Shown in pieces: positions 36,949 through 58,866 of a DNA stretch of 64,000 bases. Numbering within the stretch: position 1 is the stretch's first letter; each line of letters begins with the position of its first letter. Origin of the DNA: Segatella oulorum JCM 14966. GTDB taxonomy: Bacteria > Bacteroidota > Bacteroidia > Bacteroidales > Bacteroidaceae. The notes below the pieces were generated by a model. The model ran no database searches and was not told where the DNA came from. It worked only from the letters and a program-made list of their open reading frames with translations. The stretch spans positions 1 through 64,000 of the forward strand of contig NZ_BAJQ01000007.1 in assembly GCF_000613785.1 (NCBI RefSeq), in the 5' to 3' direction. A program made the translations under genes and the position numbers.

Positions 36949-37135
36949 GGATGCGGACTTTCACGGCTGAACACCCCAAAACGGTGGGCGGATGCGGACT
37001 TTCACAGCTGAATATCCCAAAAAAGTCAACGGATGCGGACTTTCACAGCCGAATATCCCAAAAAAGTCAACGGATGCGGACTTTCACAGCCGAATATCCC
37101 AAAAAAGTCAACGGATGCGGACTTTCATAAACACA
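36949..37135. repeat. 41-bp tandem array A
   Basis: Units start at 36949, 36990, 37031, 37072 and 37113, exactly 41 bases apart; the last is partial. Units 2-4 are almost identical (GGATGCGGACTTTCACAG and then CCGAATATCCC). The arms GACTTT and AAAGTC can pair within a unit. It begins 37 bases after the lipoprotein gene. Confidence 0.92.
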
Positions 37136-37146
37136 TAAAAACGGTT

Positions 37147-37338
37147 GTTCCCCACTTTGGGAACACATGAAAATGGCAAAAACAGACGTTCCCAACTTTG
37201 GGAGCGGGCAAATTCTCGAAAAACGGCTGTTCCCAACTTTGGGAACACATGAAAATGGCAAAAACAGACGTTCCCAACTTTGGGAGCGGGCAAAATGCTG
37301 AAAAACGGCTGTTCCCAACATTGGGAACAGCCGTTTTT
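37147..37338. repeat. 41-bp tandem array B with alternating units
   Basis: Units start at 37147, 37188, 37229, 37270 and 37311, exactly 41 bases apart. Each has the near-perfect hairpin GTTCCCAACTTTGGGAAC or its variant ending GGGAGC. Two spacer types alternate: ACATGAAAATGGCAAAAACAG and GGGCAAATTCTCGAAAAACGG. The sequence is unrelated to array A next to it. The last unit is part of the terminator at 37301-37338. Confidence 0.92.
37301..37338. terminator. bidirectional terminator
   Basis: AAAAACGGCTGTTCCCAA (37301-37318), loop CA, TTGGGAACAGCCGTTTTT (37321-37338): a perfect 18-base stem with A-runs and T-runs at its ends, so it can work both ways. It lies between two convergent genes (lipoprotein and methyltransferase). 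Confidence 0.92.
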
Positions 37339-37362
37339 CTCACGTTGTTTCGGCCCTACAGC

Positions 37363-38148
37363 CTATTTTATGCCATAAATCAGTCCCATGTTCTGCAACA
37401 TGAGGCACATGAGCGGATGCCGCTTGATGAAATCTTGCTTTTCAACGTGCAGCATGCAGTGAATCTCCGCAATCCCCTCGCGACGCAGTTCTTCAACAAA
37501 TGCGTCCATGTCGCCATAAAGCGCTTTGCTGCCGAAAAGGTCTTGGAAAGCAAAAGCACCTCCCTTTTTCACCACACGCAGCGCTTCGCGCACCACTTCT
37601 CGCTTGTCGGGCTGGGTCTTCACCTCGTGGAAAACAAAGTTGCTCACCGCCGCATCAAAACTTTCGTCGGCAAAATCGAGCTTTGAAGCGTCACCCTTGC
37701 TGAAAGTCACACGGTCGGCCACCCCTTCAATCTCGGCATTTCGCTCGCATTGCTCCTTGGCATAGTCCCAGCCCATGCCCCAATAGTCCATTCCTTGGAG
37801 CGTGGCCTCGGGAAATTGCTTTGCACAACGATTGGTGAGCGCGCCGGCTCCACAGCCAATATCAAGAAGCGTTCCGTGCCCATCCCAATCAAGATGGTCG
37901 ATAAGAAACTGGTGGATTTCGCCCATCAGTCCCCCGCCATTAAAGGAAAAGGTGTGGTGACACACCTGCATGAAAACCGCGATGACGATCGCAGCAAGTG
38001 CCAAAAGACCGGCGATGACGGCAGCCCAGAAGTTGTGCCAGCAAAACGCTGAGAAGAAAAATAACAGTAGAAAAGCAACAGCACAACCGTAGCTGATGCG
38101 CAGGATTGTAGCGGGAACCCAGTTCCCATAATTTGTTCTTTGTTTCAT
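37363..38148 (-). CDS. SAM-dependent methyltransferase, membrane-anchored
   Basis: A class I methyltransferase of 261 residues. Two hydrophobic stretches at 15-60 (AVAFLLLFFFSAF and AAVIAGLLALAAIVIAVFM) anchor it. The SAM-binding motif is LLDIGCGAGALTNRCA, with GMDYWGMGWDYAKEQC as motif Post I and FDAAVSNFVFHEV as motif IV. Substrate unknown. It converges on the lipoprotein gene at 36081-36911 across the arrays and terminator. Confidence 0.88.
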   Translation of the reverse strand: MKQRTNYGNWVPATILRISYGCAVAFLLLFFFSAFCWHNFWAAVIAGLLALAAIVIAVFMQVCHHTFSFNGGGLMGEIHQFLIDHLDWDGHGTLLDIGCGAGALTNRCAKQFPEATLQGMDYWGMGWDYAKEQCERNAEIEGVADRVTFSKGDASKLDFADESFDAAVSNFVFHEVKTQPDKREVVREALRVVKKGGAFAFQDLFGSKALYGDMDAFVEELRREGIAEIHCMLHVEKQDFIKRHPLMCLMLQNMGLIYGIK

Positions 38149-38330
38149 TGCATATCCATTTGTTGTTAGAAATCGTGCTTTTGTTCAAGCTAAAGAAACG
38201 TGGCGGAGCACCCTTTGTCCCGACGTGTCTGCAAAGATAAACAAAATTTTTAATACGCCGCCACTTTAGCATGCCTGATGAATATAGAGAATGGGCACGT
38301 ATCTGCAAAGATAAGACGTGACATTCGCAA

Positions 38331-38380
38331 CAAAAAAAACACGAGCCCTTATCAACCAAAAATGTTATGAGAAGGGCTCG
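38331..38380 (-). terminator. terminator of the gene at 38401
   Basis: On the minus strand CGAGCCCTT, a 21-base loop, AAGGGCTCG, then a T-rich run (TTTTTTTT, minus strand of 38332-38339). A classic intrinsic terminator 20 bases after the stop codon at 38401. Confidence 0.85.
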
Positions 38381-38400
38381 CGTAGAGGCTATAGTATGAT

Positions 38401-39516
38401 TTACTTACTCTTGTGATAGATGCTTGCAGCACCACCGGCTAAATCGATCAGCGTTTCGGGAGTCGGACGTTCAGCCATGAGTTTGCGCAACATATACAGA
38501 TTGTAAACGCAATACAGCGTGTTGCTCACCGCAGGCTTCCAGCTATTGGGATCATTGGCATCGGCTAAAAGACCATATTGGTTGGCTGCCTTAAAATCTC
38601 TTCCCATTGCTGAAAGCAGAGCCGCATTGGTGTAAACAAAATACTTATAATCAGTAGACTTACCTTCGACGTTGAGATGGGCAAACCGTTGGCTCAAATC
38701 AACGAACTGCTGATTAAGTTTCTCGCTATTGACATCTTGCAACCATTGAGTATAAAGTGGTGCAGCTTCGGCCGATAAATTCGCCTCTTCAGGATAAGCG
38801 GCCTGCACCTTTTCGGCTACAGCAGTATATTGCAGTTTGCTATACTTGTCACCCACCAAAAAGAGTTGAACATACTGTGCCAAACTATTGCCGGCATAAT
38901 CGAGAGCCTTTTTGGCCGTTAAACCTTGAATGACACCAGCATGCTCAGCAAAATAGCTTCCGGCAACCTCCTCTGTTCCCCATTTCTTCGCACTATTCTT
39001 ATCGGTGATGACAATCTGCTTCGCCGCAGCATCATAACCCACATAGTTTTTGTCAACATAATTAGAGTCGATGACCGTGAAATTTACCAAGGTCTTCCCT
39101 TCCGCGTCTTTAATCCTACAAGCCACACCTAAACTATATTCTGTGCGAATACATACGCCAGCATAGGGGTCGCCATCATATTTGGGCTGCTGAAAATCAT
39201 ATTTCTTTTTAAACACAGGCTTCTTGGTGTAATAGACTTCCATCGTAAATTTAGCTGCACCTGACTTCACATTAATGCCATTACCCTTTCCTAAATTCAT
39301 CTGTTCGGGCAATACGCCAATGGTTTGCTGCGTACCTTCAAACTTGTAAGTGTCATCGGGCGCAAGTTTTGTCAACAATGCCGGAGCAACGAAGCTCTTC
39401 ATCTCTTTGGGCAACAAGTTCTCACGTGTGAATTTAAACGATTTTTGCGCAACAGCTTGCGCACTGCTCATTGTTAGGATGGCACAAACCATCCATGAAG
39501 ATTTAAAATGAATCAT
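38401..39516 (-). CDS. exported protein, unknown
   Basis: A 371-residue protein with a signal peptide (MIHFKSSWMVCAILTMSSAQ followed by AVAQ, cleavage after AVA likely). The N-terminal half is beta-rich (FTMEVYYTKKPVFKKKYDFQ); the C-terminal half is helical and looks like TPR-type repeats (FVYTNAALLSAMGRDFKAAN). No family recognised. It is monocistronic, with its own terminator and a 348-base gap upstream. Confidence 0.75.
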   Translation of the reverse strand: MIHFKSSWMVCAILTMSSAQAVAQKSFKFTRENLLPKEMKSFVAPALLTKLAPDDTYKFEGTQQTIGVLPEQMNLGKGNGINVKSGAAKFTMEVYYTKKPVFKKKYDFQQPKYDGDPYAGVCIRTEYSLGVACRIKDAEGKTLVNFTVIDSNYVDKNYVGYDAAAKQIVITDKNSAKKWGTEEVAGSYFAEHAGVIQGLTAKKALDYAGNSLAQYVQLFLVGDKYSKLQYTAVAEKVQAAYPEEANLSAEAAPLYTQWLQDVNSEKLNQQFVDLSQRFAHLNVEGKSTDYKYFVYTNAALLSAMGRDFKAANQYGLLADANDPNSWKPAVSNTLYCVYNLYMLRKLMAERPTPETLIDLAGGAASIYHKSK

Positions 39517-39824
39517 ACGTTATTTTATTAAAGAAATTATAATGTACATCGAAGAATTTTACTGAAGAATTGATCTATAACGCGCATGCTGCACTATTAT
39601 TTGGATGGCCTAAATCCAATGCAAAAAAGGAAATCTTCTGCAGCTCAAAAACACTATATGTCATCGTGTAATCCAAATTTATGGCCGCGAAATTAAAGAA
39701 TTCTATTGAAAACGACAAGAAAATAGCAGATAAATTATAAAGGATGTGTATTTCGCCCCTACAAGGCATAGGCATTTCAACAACAAAATATAGAATGGTT
39801 ATGCGACGAGGAAATACCACCAAG

Positions 39825-39857
39825 AAAGTCAACGGATTCGAATTTTCACGGCCGAAA
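39825..39857. repeat. stray copy of array A unit
   Basis: AAAGTCAAC followed by GGATTCGAATTTTCACGGCC (39834 onward) matches the array A unit (AAAGTCAAC/GGATGCGGACTTTCACAGCC) at about 80 percent. It is a single degenerate copy right after folB, 2.7 kb from array A. The rest of 39517-39864 holds no gene I can support. Confidence 0.65.
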
Positions 39858-39864
39858 TGGCTTT

Positions 39865-40245
39865 CTATTCTTCAGAAACAAACGTAAACGCTACGCCTGC
39901 GCCATCAGCATCACCCCCCATTGGCGGATTACACTTGAGTAATTGCAAAGAAATGGATGTAATACGAGGAAAAGCATGCTTCAAGCGCTGGGCAATGCGC
40001 TGTGCCACATGTTCGACCAAAGCCGAGGGTTGTTTCATCTCCTCGGCTACGAAGGCATACACGTCGGCATAGTTGAGTGTATCAGCCACTTTATCACTCG
40101 TGGCCGCAACAGCCAATGGGTAGCTTATCCGCAAATTGAGCACATAATCATTGCCCACAAAACGTTCCTGCGGCATCACACCATGAAAGGCGTGAAACCG
40201 CAGGTTTTGCAAAATAATCTCACCGGATTGTATCTTCATCGTCAT
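39865..40245 (-). CDS. folB: dihydroneopterin aldolase
   Basis: A FolB-type aldolase of folate synthesis (dihydroneopterin to 6-hydroxymethyl-dihydropterin plus glycolaldehyde). 126 residues from the ATG at 40245; 40239 and 40272 are other possible starts, the last overlapping nrdJ by 10 bases. ILQNLRFHAFHGVMPQER, VLNLRISYPL, DTLNYADVYAFV (catalytic Y) and LVEHVAQRIAQRL are the typical blocks, ending GGDADGAGVAF. It follows nrdJ and is probably co-transcribed. Confidence 0.92.
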   Translation of the reverse strand: MTMKIQSGEIILQNLRFHAFHGVMPQERFVGNDYVLNLRISYPLAVAATSDKVADTLNYADVYAFVAEEMKQPSALVEHVAQRIAQRLKHAFPRITSISLQLLKCNPPMGGDADGAGVAFTFVSEE

Positions 40246-40262
40246 GAGCAATTCGCGACGCA

Positions 40263-42848
40263 TCAGCCACAACGACTTGCGCCACAGTTAGTGCAGATGA
40301 GACAGCCTTCTTGGTAGACAAGGCTTTCGTGCCCGCAAACAGGACATTTCTGCCCATTGGCTTTGGTCCCATCAACAATATATTTCTTCAACGCACGCTC
40401 AACACCATTCTTCCACGTGTTGATGCTTTCGTCTTTGAGTTGCAGAGAGCTCACGAGCTTCATGACATGGTCAATGGGCATACGATAGCGCAACACGCCC
40501 GAAATGAGTTTGGCATAATTCCAATATTCAGGATTGAATTTCTCACTCAAACCCTCAACGGTCGTTTTATAGCCGCGCTTATTCTCAAATTGAAAATCAT
40601 AGCGATGTGTCCCTTCGGCTGTGGTCGATTTAATAATTTTCCCTTTCGTCACATTCTTAGGCAGCACAATACCTTCTTCATCGTCTTGCAACCCGGTGAA
40701 GATTTCATAGGGATAACCATTGAGCAGGCCCACAAAAGCCACCCATTTCTCTTTATTATTTTGGAAACGCACAACATCGCATTCCAATTCCTTCGGTCGA
40801 ACCTCTGTCACTTCGGGCTGCTTGCAGGGCTGACGGTTATCAGCGACTTCCTGCACATCTGCACCTTCGGCATGCTTCCCTTTCTTTTTATCATCCTTCG
40901 AAACAGAAATCATCACGCCTGCTCGACTTCCATCACGATAAATGGTGCAACCTTTACATCCGCTACGCCACGCCTCGACATAAAGACGATTGACCAATGC
41001 CTCATCAACATCGTTAGGTAAATTAACCGTTACACTGATGCTATGATCTACCCATTGCTGAATGGCACCTTGCATCTTCACCTTCATCAACCAATCAACA
41101 TCGTTGGCCGTAGCTTTGTAATAAGGTGATTTAGCCACTAACGCATCGATCTCGTCTTGCGTATAACGTTTTTCCGTGTCATATCCATTAATCTGCATCC
41201 ACTCCAAGAACTTACGATGATAAACAATGTATTCCTCAAAGCTATCGCCCACCTCATCGACAAAATCTACATGCACATCAGTATCGTTGGGGTTGACCTT
41301 GCGACGACGCTTGTAAACAGGCATGAAGACTGGCTCGATACCGCTGGTTGTCTGTGTCATGAGCGATGTGGTGCCCGTGGGAGCAATCGTCAAGCAGGCA
41401 ATATTGCGGCGCCCATAACGCTTCATATCGTCATAGAGTTCCGGATCGGCCTCTTTCAAACGTAAGACAAACGGATTTTTAGCTTCACGCTGCGCATCGA
41501 ACACTTCGAAAGCGCCACGCTCCTTGGCCATCGTCACCGAGGAGCGATAGGCATTTAGCGCCAACGTTTTATGCACCAACACCGAGAAGTCCGTAGCTTC
41601 TTCTGTGCCATAGCGCAAGCCCAATGCAGCCAACATATCACCCTCTGCCGTTATTCCTACGCCCGTTCGACGCCCCATGCTGCTCTTGCGTTTTATCTTT
41701 TCCCAAAGGTGATATTCCGTCTCTTTCACCTCATCATTTTCGGGATCAGCCTTAATCTTTTCGATGATTTGGTCTATCTTTTCCATTTCCAAATCAACGA
41801 TGTCATCCATGATGCGCTGCGCATATTGCACATGCTGCTTGAATTTATCAAAATTAAACGTCGCATCGGCTGTAAAAGGCTTATCGACATAGCTGAAAAG
41901 ATTGATGCTCAGCAAACGACACGAATCGTAAGGGCACAAGGGAATTTCGCCACAAGGATTAGTGCTCACAGTAGCAAAACCAAGGTCTGCATAACAATCA
42001 GGAATGCTTTCGCGCAAAATGGTATCCCAAAATAATACGCCTGGTTCGGCACTCTTCCAAGCGTTATGCACTATCTTTTGCCATAAGTCGCGCGCAGAAA
42101 TCTCTTTCTTCACCAAAGGCGAATCGCTATCAATAGGCCATTGTTGCACATAGGTTTTACCGTCAATGGCCGCCTGCATAAACGCATCGTCTAATTTCAC
42201 AGAGACATTGGCACCCGTGACCTTTCCTTCCTCCATCTTAGCATCAATAAAAGCCTCGCTGTCGGGATGTTTTATGCTCACCGAAAGCATCAATGCGCCA
42301 CGACGACCATCTTGAGCCACCTCGCGCGTTGAATTGCTATAACGCTCCATAAACGGAACCAACCCCGTTGATGTCAGCGCCGAGTTATTCACAGGACTTC
42401 CTTTCGGGCGAATATGACTCAAGTCATGGCCTACCCCACCACGACGCTTCATCAACTGCACCTGCTCCTCATCAATGCGCATAATGGCACCATAACTATC
42501 AGCCTTACCATCCAAACCAATCACAAAACAGTTGCTCAAACTTGCAACTTGTTGTGTGTTGCCAATGCCTGTCATAGGACTTCCCGCAGGAATGATATAA
42601 CGGAAATGATCCAACAAATCAAACACTTGTTGCGCCGTCAAAGGATTCTTATACTTCTTTTCAATGCGAGCCACTTCATTGGCAATGCGCCAATGCATAT
42701 CTATAGGACTTTTTTCATAAATATTCCCGAAGCTATCCTTCATCGCATACTTATTCACCCATACACGGGCAGCCAGTTCGTCGCCGCCAAAATAGGACAA
42801 AGTTGCCTGAAAAGCCTCGTCGAAACTAAAAGTTTTTTTGGAGTTCAT
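40263..42848 (-). CDS. nrdJ: class II (B12) ribonucleotide reductase
   Basis: Adenosylcobalamin-dependent ribonucleoside-diphosphate reductase, 861 residues, converting NDPs to dNDPs. RVWVNKYAMKDSFGN opens the fold; SNCFVIGLDG and VSTNPCGEIPLCPYDSC carry active-site cysteines; ACLTIAPTGTTSLMTQTTSG is a substrate-binding loop; VDHSISVTVNLP follows. The C-terminus has two CxxC pairs (CPVCGHESLVYQEGCLICTN) as in long NrdJ proteins. No NrdR box search was possible. The enzyme makes the cell dependent on cobalamin, as does the MetH activation protein at 50257. Confidence 0.93.
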   Translation of the reverse strand: MNSKKTFSFDEAFQATLSYFGGDELAARVWVNKYAMKDSFGNIYEKSPIDMHWRIANEVARIEKKYKNPLTAQQVFDLLDHFRYIIPAGSPMTGIGNTQQVASLSNCFVIGLDGKADSYGAIMRIDEEQVQLMKRRGGVGHDLSHIRPKGSPVNNSALTSTGLVPFMERYSNSTREVAQDGRRGALMLSVSIKHPDSEAFIDAKMEEGKVTGANVSVKLDDAFMQAAIDGKTYVQQWPIDSDSPLVKKEISARDLWQKIVHNAWKSAEPGVLFWDTILRESIPDCYADLGFATVSTNPCGEIPLCPYDSCRLLSINLFSYVDKPFTADATFNFDKFKQHVQYAQRIMDDIVDLEMEKIDQIIEKIKADPENDEVKETEYHLWEKIKRKSSMGRRTGVGITAEGDMLAALGLRYGTEEATDFSVLVHKTLALNAYRSSVTMAKERGAFEVFDAQREAKNPFVLRLKEADPELYDDMKRYGRRNIACLTIAPTGTTSLMTQTTSGIEPVFMPVYKRRRKVNPNDTDVHVDFVDEVGDSFEEYIVYHRKFLEWMQINGYDTEKRYTQDEIDALVAKSPYYKATANDVDWLMKVKMQGAIQQWVDHSISVTVNLPNDVDEALVNRLYVEAWRSGCKGCTIYRDGSRAGVMISVSKDDKKKGKHAEGADVQEVADNRQPCKQPEVTEVRPKELECDVVRFQNNKEKWVAFVGLLNGYPYEIFTGLQDDEEGIVLPKNVTKGKIIKSTTAEGTHRYDFQFENKRGYKTTVEGLSEKFNPEYWNYAKLISGVLRYRMPIDHVMKLVSSLQLKDESINTWKNGVERALKKYIVDGTKANGQKCPVCGHESLVYQEGCLICTNCGASRCG

Positions 42849-43028
42849 ATTTTATTATTATTCGTGAATTCTGCGTTGCAAAATTAGGATTATATTTTCA
42901 AAAGGAAATCCTTACCTTGATATTTTCGTTTATCAATTTCCTTTTTTGAAAACTTTCACAACCAAACGCATTCAAGAATAGTTCCAAAAATCATACCAAA
43001 ATAGGTTTGTGCAGCGCGCATCAACGTT

Positions 43029-43208
43029 GCGATAAGTAAGACACGCTACAAAGTAGAACGTACCTTTGGTTCTATGCATAGATGGTTTGGTGCTGGAATA
43101 GCAAGATACATTGGGCTTTCAAAAGCACATGCGCAGCATATTATGGAAGCCATTGCCTACAACTTATACCAAACACCTGGGATTATTGTGTCAAATTCTA
43201 TCAGATAA
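43029..43208 (+). mobile_element. IS5-like transposase remnant
   Basis: An open frame of 60 codons without start ends at 43208. It reads RYKVERTFGSMHRWFGAGIA and then RYIGLSKAHAQHIMEAIAYN, the C-terminal end of an IS5-type DDE transposase with the conserved E in KVERTFGS. Nothing of the catalytic N-terminal part is present upstream, and no clear terminal inverted repeats were seen. A decayed fragment. Confidence 0.75.
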
Positions 43209-43521
43209 TATGAAAATACACCGATAAAAGATTGTTATCTACTCAAAAATAACCTCCAACGGCATCTTTTGATCAAAAATATTTATTCTTCTAAGAGTGT
43301 ATGGGTGAGAATTGAGAGGATGGTAGGTTTTGCAGAGGTCTCGTAATATTCTTTACTTGTATATTCATGCAGTACGTTATGCCATTTTATTTGGTATTGC
43401 ATAATGAGTTTTACAGAATTGAAAGATTGCTGAAAAGTGAAAATAGGGTGTTTAGATGTGCTTTGAGGATCGTTAGAAGATGTTTTGGCTCAAATAGATT
43501 ATGAAAGGGCTAACGGAGAGG

Positions 43522-43761
43522 CTATTTCTCCATTAATCTTGAAATTCTAAGCACATTTGAGGCAAACAGGGTTATTGCACCTTGTATGTACATGCAGTTA
43601 ATACCATAGGATAGTGTGGTGTCGTAGGCTAGGTTGTTCTTGAGTTCGGCATTCTTTGCTTCTATCATATAACAATCGCGTAAGAGTGTTTTAAATTCTT
43701 TAGTTTTCTCAATGGCCATTTGCTTTTCCTGATGGGGTTTCTTGATAGAGACTTCATACAG
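43522..43761 (-). mobile_element. IS1182-like transposase remnant
   Basis: The frame YEVSIKKPHQEKQMAIEKTK and then FKTLLRDCYMIEAKNAELKN matches the C-terminal end of IS1182-family transposases (the EAKN-ELK motif), ending in ITLFASNVLRISRLMEK. A stop codon lies just upstream of the open stretch, so only the tail remains. The remainder of 43209-43521 is AT-rich and has no gene; it may be IS-derived. Confidence 0.7.
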
Positions 43762-43967
43762 AAATCATGCCGAAAACAACAAGAGGCAGGCGGCAAAAGG
43801 CGGGGGCTTTTGAGGAGGGACTCACCTTTGAAAAATGTTGCTAAGGGTGTTAAGACAACACCCTTTTACTTGACTTTTGCAAAGATACAGGCATAAAAAT
43901 ATGCATTTTGTTCATTTATGGAAATAACTACCACTATTTCTACAATAAGAATTTGAAAATTAGTCCT

Positions 43968-44091
43968 TACCTTTGCGCTATCTAAAGTTCCGTGGGAACA
44001 TTACTGTTTACGTCGTGTTAAGTAAAATAGTGAAAAGATAATTAATGTAGTATTTGAAAAGGTAGCCTGTCGCGAGACAGGCTATTTTTTT
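43968..44091 (+). ncRNA. candidate small RNA
   Basis: TACCTTTG (43968-43975) fits the Bacteroidetes -7 box, though no TTTG lies at the right distance upstream. About 90 bases later comes a strong intrinsic terminator: TAGCCTGTC (44063-44071), loop GCGA, GACAGGCTA (44076-44084), then seven T. In between is a small hairpin GTTCCGTGGGAAC and no reading frame. Together they describe a transcript of about 110 bases. The terminator could instead serve only as a shared barrier before the convergent phosphatase gene. Confidence 0.45.
44063..44091 (+). terminator. intrinsic terminator
   Basis: A nine-base stem (TAGCCTGTC/GACAGGCTA) with GCGA loop and a seven-T run on the plus strand. On the minus strand the following sequence is not T-rich, so it mainly stops a plus-strand transcript. 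Confidence 0.85.
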
Positions 44092-44094
44092 GTT

Positions 44095-44589: not shown

Positions 44590-44592
44590 TCT

Positions 44593-45324: not shown

Positions 45325-45373
45325 TGTTTTTATCGGGATGATTAATGAGCAAAATAAATGTATGTAGATTGCT

Positions 45374-47176: not shown

Positions 47177-47192
47177 TTTTTGTAGATTGATG

Positions 47193-47226
47193 TTGCAAAG
47201 ATAGCAAAAATTATTATCTTTGCAAA
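47193..47226. promoter_or_regulatory. interlocked divergent promoters, dnaX / divIC-like
   Basis: Minus strand: TTTG (47223-47226), 19 bases, TATCTTTG (47196-47203), facing dnaX. Plus strand: TTG (47193-47195), 19 bases, TATCTTTG (47215-47222), facing the septum gene. Each -33 box lies beside the -7 box of the other, so only one polymerase can bind at a time. The plus-strand leader is about 6 bases, so almost leaderless. Confidence 0.7.
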
Positions 47227-48906: not shown

Positions 48907-48919
48907 ACCAAGAAGTTGC

Positions 48920-50248: not shown

Positions 50249-50256
50249 CATTTAAA

Positions 50257-51056: not shown

Positions 51057-51069
51057 ACACATTACTCTC

Positions 51070-52250
51070 ATGATTGTCAGGATAATATATTTTTTAATTC
51101 CGCTCATCCTTCTGCCCGATGCCATCGTGTATGCAGCTTTTTGCCATAAACGAACACATGCAAAGCCGTGGTTGCGCCTGCTTTGGTGGCTCCCCAGCGC
51201 GGCCATGGTGGTATTTTCCATCGTTTTGGCACTACAAAAACAGTTTGCCCCCGATAATTCGTGTTGGATAAAACTGTTTATTTTCGCATTTGCACTATGC
51301 GTCATCCCCAAGATGATGTTTGCTATCGCGGTACTCATCACACGAAGATGGGGCAAGCAAAGTTTAAAGTTCCGCCGCAGCATCTATGCCATAGCCACAC
51401 TCGTGAGCGTGCTCATCCTATGCACGACGCTTCACGGTGTGCTCGTTGGCCCCAAAGAATTGCGTGTGACGCGCCTGTCACTCACATTTAAAACACTCCC
51501 CAAAGCGTTTGATGGCCTCAAGATTGTGCTATTTAGCGATGCGCACGTAGGCACATTCAATCATGGTTGGGAGCGGTTTTTAGCACGCGATATCGACACC
51601 ATTCTGGCGCAACGGCCCGACATGATTTGCTTTGCTGGCGATTTGCAGAACACCAACCCCGCGGAACTTCAACCGCTCATCCCCCTACTCACTCGTCTTG
51701 CCAAACAGGGAATTCCCGTCTATAGTGTGCTGGGCAACCACGATTATAGCGGCTATTATTATGGAACTGCCGCCGAAAAACAAAAGATTGAGGCGCAGAT
51801 GATTGCCACACAAAAAGAGATGGGCTGGCAACTGTTGCGCAATGAGCACCGGTTTTTCTACAGCAGCCATCATAAAGACTCGATAGCCATCGTGGGCGAG
51901 GAATATTGCGGCGTAGGACTTCACAGCTTCGACAAATCCAACATCCGACGCGCTACGGCGGGAATTGACGCGAACACCTTCACCCTGCTCTTGCAACACG
52001 ACCCCAAGACGTGGCGCACACGCATTCTGCCGAGAGCCATGCCCAACTCACCTTAGCAGGACACACGCATGGTGGGCAAGTGAGCATCTTTGGCCTTCGC
52101 ACTACATTGCTCACCTATACCGATGACTACGGATTGGCCGAAAGCCATGGCCGCTATCTTTACGTCACTTGCGGAATAGGCGGTCTTATCCCTCTGCGCA
52201 TTGGCGTTGAGCCCGAAATCGCCGTCATCACCCTACACGCACAACAATAA
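51070..52250 (+). CDS. membrane metallophosphoesterase, frameshifted
   Basis: A YkuE/YaeI-type calcineurin-like phosphoesterase, 393 residues after repair. Four membrane helices cover residues 1-130. The dinuclear metal motifs are LKIVLFSDAHVGTFN, CFAGDLQNTNPAEL, VLGNHDYSGYYYG and, after the break, LTLAGHTHGGQVSIFG. A G is missing near 52030-52033 (CCGAGAGC for CCGGAGAGC), which truncates the first frame before the GHTHGG block. Relatives hydrolyse UDP-sugar-lipid or nucleotide substrates; the true substrate is unknown. Confidence 0.85.
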
Positions 52251-52254
52251 CTCA

Positions 52255-53023
52255 ATGCTTTCAATGATGAAATACCTCTATCGTCTTTATCAGCTCCTCA
52301 TTTGTTTGCCCCTGCTACTTGTGGCAACCATCATCACAGCCCTTGTCACCATCGTGGGTTGCCACCTTGGCAACGGACATTTCTGGGGCTATTATCCGGC
52401 AAATGCTGGGGATGGCTGTGGATAAAACTTCTGCTCCTACCCATAAAAGTTGAAGGGCGCGAACATCTCGACCCACACCAAAGCTATGTGTTTGTGGCCA
52501 ATCATCAAGGAGCCTTCGACATCTTCCTCATTTATGGTTTCTTGGGACGCAACTTCAAGTGGATGATGAAAAAGGGGCTCCGCCGCATTCCTTTAGTGGG
52601 AGCTGCATGTGCCGCCGCACACCACATTTTCGTTGACCGCAGTGGGCCTTCGAAAATCAAAGCCACTTATGACAATGCCCGCAACATCCTGAAGGAGGGG
52701 ATGTCGGTTGTGGTCTTTCCCGAGGGTGCGCGCACCTTCTCAGGCCACATGGGGGTGTTCTTTCGCGGTGCCTTTATGTTGCCGACGAACTGCAATTACC
52801 CGTCGTGCCCATCACCATCAATGGCAGTTTCGATGTGAAGCCGCGGACACGCGATTTCTTTTGGGTGTTCTGGCATCCGCTGAAACTAACCATTCACCAA
52901 CCTATCCCTCCTGCGGGACAAGGCGCTGAGAACATCAAACAACAAATGCAACAAAGCTATGAAGCGGTAATGAGTGGGCTTGTGCCGGCATATCAAGGCT
53001 ATGAACGCAACCCCGACCAATAA
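52255..53023 (+). CDS. plsC: PlsC-type lysophosphatidate acyltransferase, two frameshifts
   Basis: 1-acyl-glycerol-3-phosphate acyltransferase of phospholipid synthesis, 256 residues after repair. MLSMMKYLYRLYQLLICLPL gives an N-terminal helix; a base is missing at 52396-52399; then WGWLWIKLLLLPIKVEGREH, VANHQGAFDIFLIYG (NHx4D motif) and VFPEGARTFSGHMGVF (FPEGxR); a base is missing near 52778; then ELQLPVVPITINGSFDVKPR and a normal tail. An ATG at 52267 is another possible start. It is the fourth gene after pyrC in one orientation. Confidence 0.85.
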
Positions 53024-53059
53024 CTTCACCTTAGCTTTTGCGATAAACCCAAGTCAAAT

Positions 53060-53384
53060 GCTTGTTCAGCAAGTGCGGAACAATCGTTTTTAAGAAAAAT
53101 GTTCGTTCGGCGGGTGGCGAACAATCGTTTTTGAGAAAAATGCTCGTTCGGCAGGTGACGAACACTTGTTTTGAGGAAAATGTTCGTTCGGCAGGTGACG
53201 AACGCTTGTTTTTGAGGAAAATGTTCGTTCGGCGGGTGGCGAACAATCGTTTTTGAGAAAAATACTCGTTCGGCGGGTGACGAACACTTGTTTTTGAGAA
53301 AAATGTTCGTTCGGCAGGTGGCGAACACTTGTTTTGAGAAAATGTTCGTTCGGCGGGTGACGAACGCTTGTTTTTGAGAAATCA
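53060..53384. repeat. 41-bp tandem array C
   Basis: Units start at about 53060, 53101, 53142, 53182, 53223, 53264, 53305 and 53344, so 41 bases apart with two shorter copies (40 and 39). The core is GTTCGTTCGGCGGGTGACGA. Arms GTTCG and CGAAC frame a nine-base middle. On the minus strand each hairpin is followed by TTTTTCTC, resembling a repeated terminator. It fills the gap between plsC and dnaA, which converge. Confidence 0.92.
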
Positions 53385-53439
53385 GCATCGACTGCTGATG
53401 TGGGATTTTAAGATTTGCGCGCACCCATGTGCGTGCGCC

Positions 53440-54837
53440 TTATCCTTTCAACTGGAATGATGCCTCGATGCGCATCACGTCATCCTTAAAATCCTGATCC
53501 ACCTTGAGGCGCTGCTCCACTTGCGAGCAACTGTGAATAACGGTAGAATGATCGCGATTTCCCACCAGGCGACCAATGCGCGAAGCCGGAATCTTGGTAT
53601 ATTTCTGAGCCAGGAACATCGAAACCTGACGTGCGACAACCAAATCGCGCTTGCGGCTTTTGCTGTTTACGGCTGTGGCCGTAACATTGAAATGCGCACA
53701 AACCGCCTCCATAATATCGTCAATGGTGAGCGGCTTATCGTCGATTTTCACGGCCCGCTTAATCACCCGTTCGGCCAAATGCATGTCGATTTTGCAATTA
53801 TACACCACGCTATAAGCCAACAGAGAGCTCACCACACCTTCTAAATCGCGCACACTGCCGTTGGCGGTCGAGGCGATAAACTGCACCACTTCTTCGGGAA
53901 TATGCAGTCCGTCGCGGCGGATTTTATTGTGCAGGATGTCGATGCACAGCTCCACATTCGGTTTCTCCATCTCGGCAATCAAACCACAAGAGAAGCGCGT
54001 GAGCAGACGCTCGTTCATGCCTTTGAGGTCGACCGGCGGACGGTCGCTGGCCAAAATGATGCGCTTACCATTGCGAAAGAGATGATTAAAGATGTGGAAA
54101 AAGGTGTCTTGCGTCTTAACGGCATTCATCCACTCTTGAATGTCATCCACGATGAGCATGTCGATGGTCTGATAAAACCGAATGAAGTCGTTGATGACGT
54201 GTTTGAGGTTGGCATCGACAAACTGCGACTGGAAAAGGCGCGCGCTGATATAAAGCACGCGCTTCTCGGGATAAAGCTGCTTGCAATGCAGCCCAATGGC
54301 GTTGATGAGGTGCGTTTTTCCGCATCCCGAAGGACCATAAATAAACATGGGGTTGAATTGCGGCGTGGCAGGATGCTCGGCAATCGAAAGTCCCACGCTG
54401 CGCGGCAGCTTGTTGCTCGTGCCCTCAATATAGTTCTTGAACGTGAGATGCGGGTCGAGTTGCGAATCAAATTCAACCGCTGCCGCCCGATTTTCCGCTT
54501 GCTTGCGGCTGCCCTGCGCAGCATTCACATCGGCAATCGCTTCATCCGACTCAATATCTTGCGTCAATTTGTGCTCCTTGTCGGTGACAATGCGATAGGT
54601 GAGCTGCACGCCCTCGCCAAAGGTGCGATAGAGCACCGCGCGCAACAAGCCTAAGAAGTTCTCCTCTAAATATTCATAGACGAAAGGACTGGGCACTTGA
54701 ACGAGGATGGTTTTCTCTTCTTCGTTAAAATGCTCAAAGCCAATGGGCTTAAACCAAGTATCAAACTGTTGCGGCGTGACATGTTGCTTGATGAGCGCAA
54801 GTGCCCTGTCCCAACAGCTTGCAGGACTTCCTTTCAT
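53440..54837 (-). CDS. dnaA: chromosomal replication initiator DnaA
   Basis: DnaA, 465 residues, the origin-melting AAA+ ATPase. Domain I is residues 1-90 (WDRALALIKQHVTPQQFDTW); Walker A is IYGPSGCGKTHLINAIG near 170; the sensor region has LIVDDIQEWMN and ILASDRPPVDLKGMNERLLT; domain IV has the DnaA-box-binding signature GNRDHSTVIHSCSQVEQ. No DnaA box of the form TTATNCACA was seen upstream. It is read in the same direction as the MCE gene and followed by array C. Confidence 0.97.
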   Translation of the reverse strand: MKGSPASCWDRALALIKQHVTPQQFDTWFKPIGFEHFNEEEKTILVQVPSPFVYEYLEENFLGLLRAVLYRTFGEGVQLTYRIVTDKEHKLTQDIESDEAIADVNAAQGSRKQAENRAAAVEFDSQLDPHLTFKNYIEGTSNKLPRSVGLSIAEHPATPQFNPMFIYGPSGCGKTHLINAIGLHCKQLYPEKRVLYISARLFQSQFVDANLKHVINDFIRFYQTIDMLIVDDIQEWMNAVKTQDTFFHIFNHLFRNGKRIILASDRPPVDLKGMNERLLTRFSCGLIAEMEKPNVELCIDILHNKIRRDGLHIPEEVVQFIASTANGSVRDLEGVVSSLLAYSVVYNCKIDMHLAERVIKRAVKIDDKPLTIDDIMEAVCAHFNVTATAVNSKSRKRDLVVARQVSMFLAQKYTKIPASRIGRLVGNRDHSTVIHSCSQVEQRLKVDQDFKDDVMRIEASFQLKG

Positions 54838-54893
54838 GAAAAACTATGCTACTAAAATGATTAAATGTCGTTAGAGTGTTTGCTAAGTGGACA

Positions 54894-54924
54894 CAAAGTT
54901 ACAAAAACTAATGCAAATTCCAAA
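54894..54924 (-). promoter_or_regulatory. promoter of dnaA
   Basis: On the minus strand TTTG (54921-54924), 19 bases, TAACTTTG (54894-54901). A consensus match. Leader about 50 bases to the ATG at 54837. Confidence 0.8.
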
Positions 54925-54931
54925 AGGATGG

Positions 54932-54952
54932 GCACAATCTGTAGCATTGTGC
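54932..54952 (-). terminator. hairpin after the MCE gene
   Basis: GCACAAT (54932-54938) pairs with ATTGTGC (54946-54952) around a seven-base loop. On the minus strand it is followed by a CC then TTTT. It probably stops transcription of the MCE gene just before the dnaA promoter. Confidence 0.5.
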
Positions 54953-54977
54953 ACCAAACTTTTTTGTTTATTGTGAA

Positions 54978-55877
54978 TTATTTATCTTTTCTGCCAAACA
55001 AAGAGAAGTGCACATAGCGCTTGGGATGCTGCCGCACATTGATGAGCAGCGAGTCGACGCTCACCATCGTTTTATTGAGGTTGTTATAGAGTGCCGGGTC
55101 GTGCATGAGCAAACCTAAGCTGCCTTCTTTGCTGTTGAGCTGCTGGCTAAACGCATTGAGCTGCGCGATGGTTTGGTTCACCTGAGCCATCGTTCCGGCG
55201 ATGTCCACCTGCGCAAGATTACCCGTGAAGGTGTTGGCATTCACCATCACACCGTCGGCACGGCGCAAAAGGCCCGGCACTTGCCTGTTCACTCCCGCAA
55301 CGAGCGTGTTGAGCTGCTGCGAAGTGGTGTTGAGGTTGGCGGTGATGCCTTCGATGTTGTGGAGCGAATGTGCCAAAGCTGGGTCGGCCAGCAAGGTGTT
55401 GACACTGCTGAGAATACTATCGAGCTTGGGCAACATTTGCTGCACGGTGGGCAACAATTTTGCCACATTTCCCAACATTCCGCTGTTCTTAGAACCAATA
55501 ATTGTGTCGCCTTTGTTCACCCGCTCGAGAGGATTGTTAGCCAAGAGCAAATTCATCTTCACGTTGCCCATGAGATCGCTTTCAATCTCGGCCGAGCTTC
55601 CTTTTGGGATGCGCAAATCGGGATTGATGTCGATTTGCACGAGCACATCGCCCTTCTTGGCATAGTTATACTGAATGCTTTTCACCACGCCCACCTTGTA
55701 GCCATCGGCATAGATGGGATTGGACGACGAGAGGCCGCTAATATCTTTAAACGCCACGTAATAGGTGGAATCCGTGGAGAAGAGCGACATGCCCTTCAAG
55801 AAATTGAGTCCAAAGAACAGCACCAGGATGCCGACGATGGCAACGAGCGCAATTTTGATTTCGTTTGTCAGTTTCAT
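54978..55877 (-). CDS. MlaD/MCE-domain protein
   Basis: A 299-residue protein with one N-terminal membrane helix (IKIALVAIVGILVLFFGLNF) and an MCE domain at about 35-120 (TYYVAFKDISGLSSSNPIYA, VLVQIDINPDLRIPKGSSAE, MGNVKMNLL). The remaining helical tail holds long amphipathic stretches (QQLNTLVAGVNRQVPGLLRR). MCE proteins form lipid-trafficking rings in the periplasm. No MlaE/MlaF genes are next to it, which is common in Bacteroidota. Confidence 0.9.
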   Translation of the reverse strand: MKLTNEIKIALVAIVGILVLFFGLNFLKGMSLFSTDSTYYVAFKDISGLSSSNPIYADGYKVGVVKSIQYNYAKKGDVLVQIDINPDLRIPKGSSAEIESDLMGNVKMNLLLANNPLERVNKGDTIIGSKNSGMLGNVAKLLPTVQQMLPKLDSILSSVNTLLADPALAHSLHNIEGITANLNTTSQQLNTLVAGVNRQVPGLLRRADGVMVNANTFTGNLAQVDIAGTMAQVNQTIAQLNAFSQQLNSKEGSLGLLMHDPALYNNLNKTMVSVDSLLINVRQHPKRYVHFSLFGRKDK

Positions 55878-55908
55878 ATTCTATTTTTTGTCGGTTCGCA
55901 CTTGCGAT

Positions 55909-57138
55909 TTATTTATTTTTATGGGCTTTAAACGTGCGTATCGCCTCATTGATGTTGCATTTCTGCCCCGCTACAAACGCCACGATAAACGCATCGGGAA
56001 AACGCTCTAAAAGCTGTTTGCGCAGCTTGTAAATCTCGTTATAATTGGCCGAAGCGCCGCAGGTGTATTTAAACAGTGCACCCTCACGGTAAAAATCCAC
56101 GCCGTCGAGCCCTTTCAGACGGCTGTCATCGTTGCGCAAAGCCTGGCTGGTCACAAACAGCTGCACTTTAAACACAGGCTGCGCGGACGTGTCCTTATCG
56201 GGCGTGACATCGGGCTGCGGTTTCACTTCGGGCGCTGCCACCGCCACTTTTTTCTTGCGTGCAGGCTTGGGCGCAGGCGCTTCGTTTTGATAAGAAGGCG
56301 GCACCACCTGCGGAATGACCGGCTCATCCTTGATAGGTTTGTAGGGCACGCTGATGTTGCTGTCATAATGCTCGCGATATTTCATGAATGCGTTGAAGAC
56401 GCCCTGCACATAGAGCGGCACAGAGCTGTCGGCATTGAGGAAATCTTCTTCGTCGGGCGTAGAGATGAAACCCAGCTCGAGCAGGCAACTCGGCATTGAT
56501 GTGAGGCGCAACACGGCCAGATTATTCTGATGCGAACCCCCATTCACGCGCCCCGTGGCAGCGCAGACATATTGCTGCATCAGACGCGAAAGCTCCACGC
56601 TGCGTTCGCGGTTTTTGTCGGCGATAAACTCATACATGATGTCGCTTTCGGCGGCATTGGCATCGAGTTCCTTATACACCTTCTTGTAATCCTTTTCTAA
56701 AAACATCACCGAGTTCTCGCGCTTGGCCACATCGACATTGGCTTTGATGCCGCGGTCGCCCGACTGTGCGCCTCGGCCAAGCGTCCAACTTTGAAACCCA
56801 TGGGCCGATTTCGAGCCCGTGATGGCGTTGATATGGAACGAGAGAAAGAGATCGGCCTTGTTGCGGTTGGCAATGTCGGCGCGACCGGCGAGGGTGACGA
56901 ATATGTCGGTTGTGCGCGTGTAAATCACCTTCACGTCGGGGCAATTTCGCTCCACATAGCGCCCAAAGGCGAGCGCATATTTCAACGTCAAATCCTTTTC
57001 GTTGGAATAGGCCCCCGGCGCACCATTATCGCCACCGCCATGCCCCGCATCGATGACGAGGGTGAAGCGCTTGCCGGCCGCAACCACAGTCAGCGCAAAA
57101 CAAAGCAATGTTATCAGTGAGAATACTCTCTTACGCAT
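55909..57138 (-). CDS. N-acetylmuramoyl-L-alanine amidase
   Basis: A zinc amidase (Amidase_3) of 409 residues with a signal peptide (KRVFSLITLLCFALTVVAAG). Zinc and catalytic residues are in VIDAGHGGGDNGAPGAYSNE, LFLSFHINAITGSKSAHGFQ and LLELGFISTPDEEDF. A low-complexity linker (PAPKPARKKKVAVAAPEVKP) leads to a C-terminal domain near 330-400 (YREGALFKYTCGASANYNEI) that resembles SPOR peptidoglycan-binding domains. It is a cell-division or autolytic enzyme. Confidence 0.92.
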   Translation of the reverse strand: MRKRVFSLITLLCFALTVVAAGKRFTLVIDAGHGGGDNGAPGAYSNEKDLTLKYALAFGRYVERNCPDVKVIYTRTTDIFVTLAGRADIANRNKADLFLSFHINAITGSKSAHGFQSWTLGRGAQSGDRGIKANVDVAKRENSVMFLEKDYKKVYKELDANAAESDIMYEFIADKNRERSVELSRLMQQYVCAATGRVNGGSHQNNLAVLRLTSMPSCLLELGFISTPDEEDFLNADSSVPLYVQGVFNAFMKYREHYDSNISVPYKPIKDEPVIPQVVPPSYQNEAPAPKPARKKKVAVAAPEVKPQPDVTPDKDTSAQPVFKVQLFVTSQALRNDDSRLKGLDGVDFYREGALFKYTCGASANYNEIYKLRKQLLERFPDAFIVAFVAGQKCNINEAIRTFKAHKNK

Positions 57139-57242
57139 AAGCCACTAAACTTGGCGGCAAAATTAGTGAAAAAAAACTATTTCCTTTAAAAACGGCACTT
57201 AGTTTTAGGGTTTATTTAAGATTTCGGAGCGGCCACGAAAAG

Positions 57243-57272
57243 GGGGCAGAACAACCCGCGCTGTCCTGCCCC
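57243..57272 (-). terminator. terminator after DUF6261 gene
   Basis: On the minus strand GGGGCAG, a 16-base loop, CTGCCCC, followed by CCTTTTCG. It lies 18 bases after the DUF6261 stop codon at 57290. Confidence 0.6.
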
Positions 57273-57289
57273 ACTTGCAATTCCCGACG

Positions 57290-58345
57290 CTATGGCTTGG
57301 GCGTCACTTCGGCGCTACCCTGCCCGCTTTCGCCCGGCTTTTTGCCATTGCCGCTGTCGCCGGGCTTTTTCTTGCCCGGATTCTTCGGCGTGGGCTTCTT
57401 GGGCGCAGGTTTTTCCTCGTGTTTCACCACTTCCAACTGATGATTTTTCACCACCACCCAGAGCGGCTCGTCGCTGCCCGCCACGTGCAACTCATATTGC
57501 TTCTTTTTGTCGCTGCCCGAGGTGTTGCCTGTAAACGAGAGGCTGCCCTGGGGCAGATTGCGCTTCACCTCCAAGGCCAAGAACATGGGCGCGAGCATTT
57601 CGCCGATTTTCTTGCGTGCCGTCTCCATAGCCGCAGCATTGGCCCGTTCGCGGTCGGCAAACACCCTTTCGCGGTCGGCCACATAGGTGTTGTAGAGCTC
57701 GATGGCGTGCAGGAGCTTGGCATCGCGCGTCACCTCATACAGACATTCGACGCGCCAGAGCACATCGTCCAACGCCTCGTCGGTGCGTTCGCGCAAAACA
57801 CGTGCACCGCGTTGAGGCGCATTGGCATAGCTCTCATAACGGCCGTAGTAGACCTTGCTAAACGCCTCGTTGGCCTTCTCCAAGCGCGTGATGGCCGCCG
57901 CGAGTGCCAACTTGGTCACCTCGGCCGCCACTTTGGCATCCTTCAGGTCGACAAGGAGGTTGAGCACGGCGCCCGTCTCCTTTTCGTAGTTCATCGTGGC
58001 CAAACCGGGATAGCAGTCGAGCACCCGATCCAGCTTTTTCCCTGCCGCCCGTTCGTCGGCATCGTCGCTCACCAAGGCCGTCTGAATTTTCAGCGACAGC
58101 GAGCGGAAAGCCTGGTCGCGCACGTCGTCCAACTGCCTCACGTCGGCCGTCTCCTCGGCAGCCGCCGGCAAATTGAGCACTTCATCCTCGTTTTTGATGG
58201 CCGTCGCCAAGGGCGGAAGCACCTCGTCGATCTTGTCCATTTTGAGAGCTTTAAACTGCGCCAACACATAGTTGGCATACTGAGAATGCTCCAAATTTTG
58301 GAGCTTTATGCGATTTAAATTATCGACTTTCTCTTTTCTTCTCAT
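57290..58345 (-). CDS. DUF6261-like protein with K/P-rich tail
   Basis: A 351-residue all-helical protein, without signal peptide, of the DUF6261 style found in Bacteroidales. The helical domain spans about 1-245 (NRIKLQNLEHSQYANYVLAQ at the start). The end is very unusual in composition: from about 300 it becomes lysine/proline/glycine-rich (KPAPKKPTPKNPGKKKPGDS), probably disordered. Function unknown. The gene is flanked by a strong terminator and array D. Confidence 0.75.
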   Translation of the reverse strand: MRRKEKVDNLNRIKLQNLEHSQYANYVLAQFKALKMDKIDEVLPPLATAIKNEDEVLNLPAAAEETADVRQLDDVRDQAFRSLSLKIQTALVSDDADERAAGKKLDRVLDCYPGLATMNYEKETGAVLNLLVDLKDAKVAAEVTKLALAAAITRLEKANEAFSKVYYGRYESYANAPQRGARVLRERTDEALDDVLWRVECLYEVTRDAKLLHAIELYNTYVADRERVFADRERANAAAMETARKKIGEMLAPMFLALEVKRNLPQGSLSFTGNTSGSDKKKQYELHVAGSDEPLWVVVKNHQLEVVKHEEKPAPKKPTPKNPGKKKPGDSGNGKKPGESGQGSAEVTPKP

Positions 58346-58479
58346 AGTGATATTATTTTTTAAAAAAGTTACCTTGCGGCATATACAAGGGGGTTATAGA
58401 TTGGCTTAAGGTGTCCACAAATGCCATGGCGTATAACCTTAATATTCTTACATTAACATAAACTGTGCCAAGCGGCGCT

Positions 58480-58866
58480 GCTCACGCGTTAGCAAGCCAT
58501 CTTTTTGATTTTTTGCCCTTGCTAAATTTTTAGCAGCCCATCTTTTTGATTTTTTGCCCTTGCTAAATTTTTAGCAGCCCATCTTTTTGATTTTTTGCCC
58601 TTGCTAAATTTTTAGCAGCCCATCTTTTTGATTTTTTGCCGCTGCTAATTTTTTAGCAAGCCATCTTTTTGATTTTTTGCCCTTGCTAATTTTTTAGTAG
58701 GCCCGTTTTTTGATTTTTTGCCCTTGCTAAATTTTTAGCAGCCCATCTTTTTGATTTTTTGCCGCTGCTAATTTTTTAGCAGCCCATCTTTTTGATTTTT
58801 TGCCGCTGCTAATTTTTTAGCAAGCCATCTTTTTGATTTTTTGCCGCTGCTAATTTTTTAGCAAGC
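58480..58866. repeat. 41-bp tandem array D
   Basis: Units start at 58521, 58562, 58603, 58644, 58685, 58726, 58767, 58808 and 58849, exactly 41 bases apart with no exception; a partial unit precedes at 58480. Each has TGCTAAATTTTTAGCA, a perfect hairpin of seven base pairs, then CCCATCTTTTTGATTTTTTG. On the plus strand hairpin plus T-tracts resembles an intrinsic terminator repeated nine times. It lies between two minus-strand genes. Confidence 0.95.

Follow-up and report, generated by a model that had tools for sequence, protein, structure and literature searches.

Which process gives tandem repeats of unrelated sequence the same unit length? The question is raised by a window of 64,000 nucleotides from Segatella oulorum JCM 14966 (the whole stretch of DNA analysed), in which an earlier note had described four intergenic arrays, A to D, with a period of 41 bp. 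TRF and a unit-by-unit reading agreed that all four are real, and the unit counts in that note were borne out. Array A (36945..37127; TRF period 41) comprises four full units and a partial one (GGATGCGGACTTTCACAGCCGAATATCCCAAAAAAGTCAAC), and array B (37137..37329) four 41-bp units and a partial one, with the hairpin GTTCCCAACTTTGGGAAC. Two unit versions alternate in array B to give an 82-bp higher order, and TRF also scores a period of 82, that is, 2x41. Its last unit merges into a complete 18-pair terminator-like hairpin on the minus strand (37300..37339; z −9.4), which adjoins the minus-strand gene 37363-38148 at its 3′ end and is a possible seed of the array. Array C (53056..53381; 53078-53381 in TRF), located between acyltransferase and dnaA genes, is built of 41-bp units except for one of 40 and one of 39, and its unit carries a GTTCG..CGAAC hairpin together with an A/T core. 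Array D (58489..58868) has nine 41-bp units with a TGCTAA-TTAGCA hairpin; at its site in the sister strain HJM029, TRF finds 8.7 copies of a unit that is related but has another hairpin core (GCTGGAGTTCCAGC). As had been stated, arrays A, B and C are flanked by convergent genes, and array D lies between two minus-strand genes.

The sequences of A to D are indeed unrelated, as no pair of units is more similar than shuffled units (p 0.10-0.47); clustering connects B and C via intermediate arrays elsewhere in the genome. The earlier note had described a short palindrome in most units. Compared with shuffles in pieces of at most 141 bases, arrays B, C and D fold beyond expectation (z −3.5, −2.9 and −2.9), but array A folds no better (z −0.6). 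On the minus strand the units of array B are terminator-like, and a search of the whole window against Rfam at the gathering threshold returned tRNAs only. The window also contains other arrays: two have a period of 43 (10..242, 5.5 copies at the contig start; 323..416, 2.2 copies) and one belongs to a 22-bp class (32220..32304, 3.9 copies), all as scored by TRF.

The earlier note had named a sharp peak at 41-43 with many unrelated families as its test, and a peak at 41-42 with many unrelated unit sequences was found in 862 kb, or 30% of the genome. There, 37 of 48 non-coding arrays with a period of at least 18 have units of 40-43 bp, and 25 have units of exactly 41. The 41-bp period is not due to chance, because a lag scan independent of TRF places 28 of 48 repeat regions of the same 862 kb at lag 40-42. 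Likewise, 11 of 14 arrays in 19 interior stretches unselected for arrays fall at 41-42. A second sharp class, of 22 bp, appears in other Prevotella. Among 186 unique non-coding arrays, 92 have units of 21-23 bp, 62 have units of 40-43 bp and 5 lie at 28-36 or 48-57 bp. The 118 Prevotella stretches sampled overlap in part, and the main counts were redone after 6 of 258 arrays had been removed as duplicates; some of the 6 were not DNA read twice but one array recurring in close relatives, or a second copy inside one genome. Controls from other genera and families (721 kb) yielded 18 arrays, none at 40-44 and four at 22, and 20 stretches from more distant Bacteroidales families contained no array at 22 or 40-44. 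The claim that every unit is exactly 41 bases holds for the full units of A, B and D but is not general, because only 180 of 231 units in 42 arrays match the consensus length. Mean unit length is 41.26 (sd 0.60) over 47 clear-stem arrays of the 41 class and 21.87 (sd 0.52) over 67 arrays of the 22 class, while hairpin length in these arrays varies with an sd of 4.43 and 3.42, respectively.

It had also been suggested that four helical turns set the period. This rule fits poorly and is rejected, because the second class lies at 22 and few arrays lie near three or five turns (31 or 52). The two classes would moreover imply different twists (41.26/4 = 10.3 vs 21.87/2 = 10.9 bp per turn). Half-unit substructure of 20-21 bp was not detected either, as similarity at a shift of 20 was below that of shuffled units.

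Palindromes exceed shuffled expectation in the 41 class of this genome (p 1.7e-5), in that of other genomes (p 2e-5) and in the 22 class (p 3e-9), with no such excess in arrays of other periods (p 0.14) or in flanks (p 0.08). Stems diverge less than the rest of the unit, with ratios of 0.449 and 0.520 in the two classes, and 0 of 200 column permutations gave a value as low in either; some stems keep their pairing through double compensatory changes. In two of the hairpin comparisons each distinct hairpin was entered once, so that 7 rows represent 8 hairpins in one and 11 in the other. The hairpin is nevertheless a tendency, unproven for each unit, because few units individually beat their own shuffles at p 0.05 (15 of 40 in the 41 class of this genome, 11 of 31 in that of other genomes and 30 of 98 in the 22 class). 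A preference of arrays for ending in hairpins was weak (p 0.024 and 0.006) and possibly results from the better conservation of stems. Sense-strand stems contain no excess of G-T over A-C pairs (21 vs 27, small numbers), so that selection on an RNA hairpin receives no support from sense-strand G-U pairing in these small numbers.

We then compared the arrays with their sites in HJM029, for which 27 of 35 flank pieces were queried and 23 located, leaving four not located. Relative to the sister strain, arrays gain or lose whole units (two vs six units in one case, hairpins 1A-1B-1C vs 5A-4B-1C in another), are missing, or are swapped for an unrelated 41-bp array, as found at one orthologous site. 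For this pair of strains the ratio of indels to substitutions is 0.152 within arrays and 0.086 in noncoding DNA free of arrays, which argues against suppression of indels within arrays. According to our own codon-model gene calls, which are not annotation, a single one of the 41-class arrays sampled in this genome overlaps a gene, and none of the 30 arrays having genes on both sides occupies a divergent gap. Arrays are A-rich on the sense strand.

The alternative that survives best is selection on spacing, in which a protein would recognise hairpins set at a fixed pitch behind genes, or the hairpins would serve a role in RNA or in the structure of the chromosome. Duplications of every length would then occur, with those of 41-42 or 22 bp alone being retained. 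The avoidance of divergent gaps, the conserved stems and the sense-strand A-richness favor it. So does a family of arrays at three loci, detected by a genome-wide search of one hairpin, which share an identical 22-bp TAACCC hairpin: every linker read measures exactly 20 bp, even with linker sequences that vary widely between loci, and this fits a spacing constraint too. However, indels are not suppressed, and the two lengths are already present in small arrays and in near-identical ones. Of 89 arrays with fewer than 3 copies, 50 are at 22 and 13 at 41-42, and of 15 unique near-identical ones (at least 95% match, no indel, period at least 18), 7 are at 22 and 4 at 41-42, counts in which HJM029 loci and stretch L335 were not screened for coding. 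The lack of G-U preference on the sense strand runs contrary to expectation for an RNA function, and one genus would have to select two unrelated pitches. We consider this alternative unlikely, though it deserves more weight than those that follow.

Common descent, in which one ancient repeat spread and diverged and its length was kept as indels are rare, is less likely still. Families A and B do occur at several loci (relatives of A on contigs C67, C124 and C134, and of B on contigs C104, C117 and C128), a 13-member cluster joins B and C by a common A/T core, and the identical TAACCC hairpin recurs with different 20-bp linkers. Since some families have thus spread between loci, part of the shared length is inherited, and the claim that the arrays do not descend from one repeat holds only in part. 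Against common descent, 56 arrays of the 41 class from six genomes fall into 31 clusters, the 13-member one among them, with no similarity between clusters above the cut used, and A to D are mutually unrelated. The 22 class behaves alike (67 clusters for 98 arrays), and arrays of the same length but unrelated sequence occupy one orthologous site. Indels inside arrays are frequent enough for length to have drifted before similarity vanished.

A third explanation, that the units are tandem intrinsic terminators, with 41 bp the length that a bidirectional terminator would naturally have, appears improbable. Array B, with its terminator-like minus-strand units, does join a complete terminator hairpin, and in HJM029 a single ordinary terminator occupies the site of array L030:14709. 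By contrast, 18 arrays flanked by genes of one direction are rich in A (0.43) and not in T (0.22) over the 9 sense-strand bases that follow the hairpin, without the T run of an intrinsic terminator and with array B as the exception, and hairpin length does not determine unit length. Finally, the view that these are ordinary variable tandem repeats, whose peak reflects the repeat finder or contig-start sampling, can draw on the enrichment of arrays at contig starts (7 of 18, in a sample of 20 stretches of which 18 begin there) and on three stretches (L021, L030 and L186) positioned where an array of family A or B was already known, but it is contradicted by the lag scan, the interior stretches and the controls and scarcely merits belief.

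The reading that we favor, with a probability of roughly 0.4, is that duplication has given rise to hairpin minisatellites again and again, in steps of two preferred lengths. Tandem duplication would act on short hairpins in single-stranded DNA, and the starting hairpins would often pre-exist behind genes, for example as terminators. Each duplication would add a fixed step of 41-42 or 22 bp independent of sequence, and ordinary slippage or unequal exchange would then expand and homogenise the copies. Stems would be retained for their part as the DNA substrate of this process and not for an RNA function, the DNA level being suggested by the lack of a G-T excess over A-C in sense stems. More broadly, and somewhat more tentatively, a molecular ruler might exist in Bacteroidales: some enzyme or step of replication would recognise short DNA hairpins and duplicate a segment of fixed length (41-42 or 22 bp), whatever its sequence, so that minisatellites with a constant unit length would arise repeatedly behind genes.

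No enzyme that could set the step length was found among the candidates examined, and the presence of neither RAYT nor reverse transcriptase tracks the arrays. Y1 transposase (PF01797) gave a partial match in a 113-codon frame of this genome and matches in HJM029 and G016, with none in G062, G063 and G064, all of which carry 41-bp arrays; mobilisation of all arrays by a RAYT is therefore rejected, with 3 of 6 carrier genomes lacking a match. Reverse transcriptase (PF00078) matched in G016 and G064 and not in this genome, HJM029, G062 or G063, and repeats made by a retroelement are likewise discarded, as 4 of 6 carriers lack a match. Prevotella appears to lack SbcCD, a hairpin nuclease, and this may permit duplication. 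None of 16 Prevotella genomes had SbcD above the cut-off, perhaps a single evolutionary event, against 7 of 8 genomes representing six further genera of the same family. Its loss is neither sufficient nor necessary for arrays: it is also missing above the cut-off in 7 of 8 more distant Bacteroidales genomes, and the 20 stretches from such families show no array at 22 or 40-44, and 22-bp arrays occur in two other genera that have SbcD.

REP/BIME elements, which are associated with RAYT transposases, are short palindromes found between genes, close to 3′ ends and at times in arrays. The present arrays resemble them in being intergenic palindromes near 3′ ends, with one hairpin family at three loci, but the units of most arrays are unrelated, with no palindrome family over many sites (31 clusters for 56 arrays), and 3 of 6 genomes with 41-bp arrays lack a Y1 match, the one here being partial. 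CRISPR arrays combine a palindromic repeat and constant spacing with a unique spacer between repeats. A constant pitch of palindromes is shared, as is, in the TAACCC family, an identical 22-bp repeat with 20-bp linkers that differ among loci; unlike CRISPR, the linkers repeat too and are mostly alike within an array, with no unit-specific spacer.

The arrays also resemble repeats of Porphyromonas gingivalis, a member of another Bacteroidales group, which the earlier note had mentioned and which are indeed on record. Tandem direct repeats of 41, 23 and 22 nt were reported in the 2003 W83 genome paper, as quoted in PMC4596501, which gives as examples the 464/PgRS elements (41 nt) and BrickBuilt (23 nt). 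In PMC4596501 and PMC5771137, the 23- and 41-nt repeats have no mutual homology, BrickBuilt is intergenic with predicted stem-loops and a strain-variable copy number, and the repeats are described as the inner parts of MITE-like elements of ~10-20 copies. Compared by description, both systems consist of uninterrupted direct repeats with units of 41 or 22-23 nt. Unlike the MITE-like elements so described, 21 of the 31 clusters in the samples read here consist of a single array, and in the TAACCC family, the single family with several loci for which flanks were compared, the flanks are not shared and the three loci match only inside the arrays. In Borgs, too, a single genome carries many tandem repeats that arose independently and evolve fast (PMC9879509), but Borgs are archaeal extrachromosomal elements, and the opening of that abstract states no single fixed unit length. 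Our literature search found no description of such arrays in Prevotella.

Tandem repeat birth is usually expected to yield widely varying unit lengths. If true, a pair of sharp lengths common to dozens of unrelated arrays throughout a genus, together with preserved hairpin stems, would mean either that the size of duplication is set by a machine or that hairpin spacing behind genes is selected. The reading would help explain why the contigs of this genome break at arrays, and it would connect the repeats of Porphyromonas, so far treated as separate curiosities, with those of Prevotella, which is common in the human mouth and gut.

Arrays A (36945-37127), B (37137-37329), C (53056-53381) and D (58489-58868) are present as the earlier note described them, with 41-bp units throughout A, B and D and two shortened units (40 and 39 bp) in C. 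Their sequences are indeed unlike, and no pair of unit sets is significantly similar (p 0.10-0.47). The assembly comprises 2.83 Mb in 138 contigs, and the window covers the opening 64 kb of one of them, C132. Our survey took in 862 kb, or 30% of the genome, made up of the window and 40 further stretches. The genome-wide peak in unit length that the note had proposed to look for is present at 41-42 bp in this part. Among 48 non-coding arrays with a period of at least 18, the unit is 41 bp in 25, 42 in eight, 40 in two, 43 in two, and 44 and 82 in one each; five have a period of 22 and four have others. Period 41-42 was found in 11 of 14 arrays from 19 interior stretches picked without regard to arrays, which would correspond to some 80-90 arrays in the whole genome. 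A lag scan independent of TRF gave a lag of 40-42 in 28 of 48 repeat regions of this genome (binomial tail 1e-31, assuming lags 10-120 equally likely). In 47 arrays with clear stems from several Prevotella genomes, the standard deviation of unit length is 0.60 as against 4.43 for the inner hairpin, which spans 12 to 33 bases, indicating that the period is not set by hairpin size.

Seven of the 18 contig starts fetched lie inside 40-42 bp arrays (C118, C121, C122, C126, C127, C128 and C129, read as stretches L036, L033, L032, L028, L027, L026 and L025), and the window's own contig start lies inside an array of period 43 (10-242). Such arrays seem to interrupt the assembly and would therefore be undercounted in draft genomes. 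A minor class of period 65-68, about three times 22, makes up 8 of 186 unique non-coding arrays (for example L170 263-468, L018 1521-1847 and one in L149 of the related genome G016). A period-68 hairpin array in G016 (L208 976-1279) adjoins a Y1 transposase match, and an apparently complete Y1 gene is found in the sister strain Prevotella sp. HJM029.

HJM029 is the nearest named relative among the matches (DnaA 95% identical), followed by Segatella maculosa (79%). In the dnaA neighbourhoods of 80 Prevotellaceae, TRF found 168 arrays, 64 with period 22 and 8 with period 41-42, the latter limited to HJM029, P. illustrans, Hoylesella saccharolytica and P. micans. The complete genome G016 has period 40-41 in 5 of 16 arrays (200 kb), and another relative, G024, has five of its seven arrays at 22 and none at 41. 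Across 118 partly overlapping Prevotella stretches outside this genome (2.3 Mb), 92 arrays of 21-23 bp were found, or 88 after deduplication, spread over 59 stretches; with this genome included, there are 98 unique arrays of 20-24 bp, and these group by sequence into 67 clusters, the biggest with 21 members. Control DNA amounted to 721 kb in 38 stretches, of which 18 came from further genera of the family and 20 from outside it. It contains 18 arrays of at least 12 bp, four at 22, one at 21 and none at 40-44. By these counts the 22-bp class is a genus trait with traces beyond the genus; the 41-bp class is, as far as sampled, patchy within it. Duplicate arrays were left out of the main statistics.

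Palindromes exceed those of shuffled units in the 41-bp class, both in this genome (p 1.7e-5) and in others (p 2e-5), and in the 22-bp class (p 3e-9), but not in other periods (p 0.14) or flanking 41-mers (p 0.08). Since a minority of units pass singly at p 0.05 (15/40 and 11/31 in the 41-bp class of this and other genomes, 30/98 in the 22-bp class), the enrichment is a trend across units. A or T runs of at least 5 occur in 29 of 40 units. Array A is the only one of the four folding no better than shuffles; at its end, array B merges with a terminator hairpin that is complete (z -9.4) and plausibly the seed of the array. Stems are also conserved. Divergence over 35 arrays of the 41-bp class is 0.043 at stem positions and 0.096 elsewhere (ratio 0.449; 0.445 with duplicates), and the ratio in 39 arrays of the 22-bp class is 0.520 (0.509 with duplicates), neither being reached in 200 column permutations. 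One stem pair of the array at L177:18780 and its HJM029 counterpart occurs as C-G, G-C or A-T (covariation matched by 4/500 shuffles). At L183:1367 two pairs covary (7/500), one unpaired in four of seven rows and the other in one row. Array D carries the hairpin core TAATTTTTTA, or a close variant of it, in this genome, whereas HJM029 carries TGGAGTTCCA. Pooled double changes within arrays keep pairing in 12 cases and do not in 6 (shuffles 5.2 and 3.6).

By codon-model gene calls, 39 of the 40 arrays found in this genome with a period of 39-45 or 82 lie outside genes. The 30 non-coding arrays flanked by genes on both sides comprise 13 in convergent, 17 in same-direction and none in divergent gaps (p ~0.002 by gap length for both the convergent excess and the divergent lack), and the upstream stop is the closer gene end in 15 of 18 same-direction arrays, one of them called coding. 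The sense strand of these 18 is A-rich (AT skew 0.195 vs 0.032 in array-free gaps, p 0.004). The placement rule is weaker in other genomes, where 2 of 15 unique 41-class and 17 of 78 22-class arrays lie in divergent gaps.

Could descent explain the common length? The note's view that the arrays do not derive from one repeat holds in part: 56 arrays (39-45 or 82 bp, six genomes) form 31 sequence clusters, but a 13-member cluster joins B to C through a common A/T core, although B and C compared directly are not significantly similar, and families A and B each recur on three further contigs. Descent thus accounts for part, not all, of the common length. Orthologous flanks were located in HJM029 for A-D and for 23 of 27 further sites tried; TRF found arrays at 10 of these 23 sites but not at the other 13, and because some sites align by one flank only, not every one of the 13 is a clean absence. 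Whole-unit differences between this genome and HJM029 occur in A (4 vs 5), C (7 vs 6), L018:13946 (6.5 vs 5.5) and L177:18780 (six vs two), B being equal. HJM029 carries three different hairpins once each at L027:9192, with A/T cores 42 bp apart; here they occur five, four and one times at 41-42 bp spacing. The arrays that the two genomes carry at L178:16175 are unrelated, yet each has period 41. HJM029 has a single ordinary terminator in place of the array at L030:14709 and, by eye, about 22 bp of the unit alone at L184:9949. Separately, tRNA-Arg (63206-63280, 63306-63380) and tRNA-Pro (31837-31911, 31934-32008) each stand in two tandem copies about 100 bp apart, and the HJM029 site matching the tRNA-Arg pair shows a tandem duplication of 100 bp.

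A constraint on spacing has its best case in a 22-bp palindrome with 23 copies in this genome (at most 3 mismatches, 19 exact). None is solitary; all stand 42 bp apart inside arrays, which lie on three contigs. Its linkers vary across loci and, at one locus, across units, while their length stays 20. HJM029 has one 3-mismatch copy, within a three-hairpin array at one of three sites, and G016 has none. Against such a constraint, indels are not rarer relative to substitutions within arrays (ratio 0.152) than in array-free noncoding DNA (0.086). As indels are not suppressed, and small and near-identical arrays already show both lengths, we favour, with modest confidence, a length rule that would act when an array is born rather than selection at a later stage. 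RNA-level selection on stems is not indicated, because sense-strand G-T mismatches do not exceed A-C (21 vs 27; same-direction arrays, both classes). Neither RAYT transposases nor reverse transcriptases follow the distribution of the arrays, with no match in three and four, respectively, of the six genomes that carry 41-bp arrays.

Conserved stems that lack the wobble typical of RNA suggest hairpins that would form in DNA. SbcCD cuts DNA hairpins, and its lack may be a permissive condition: SbcD exceeds the curated cut-off in none of 16 Prevotella genomes (weaker matches only). Of eight genomes representing six further genera of the family, seven exceed it, but just 1 of 8 more distant genomes does, so that the link is correlative and may reflect a single event. 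We found no description of such arrays in Prevotella in the literature searched, most subscription papers being outside its scope. The note mentioned direct repeats of similar size in Porphyromonas gingivalis. PMC4596501 cites the 2003 genome paper on strain W83 for tandem direct repeats of 41, 23 and 22 nt in that species, and places 41-nt repeats in its 464/PgRS elements. With equal lengths recurring in another group, the length rule looks general.
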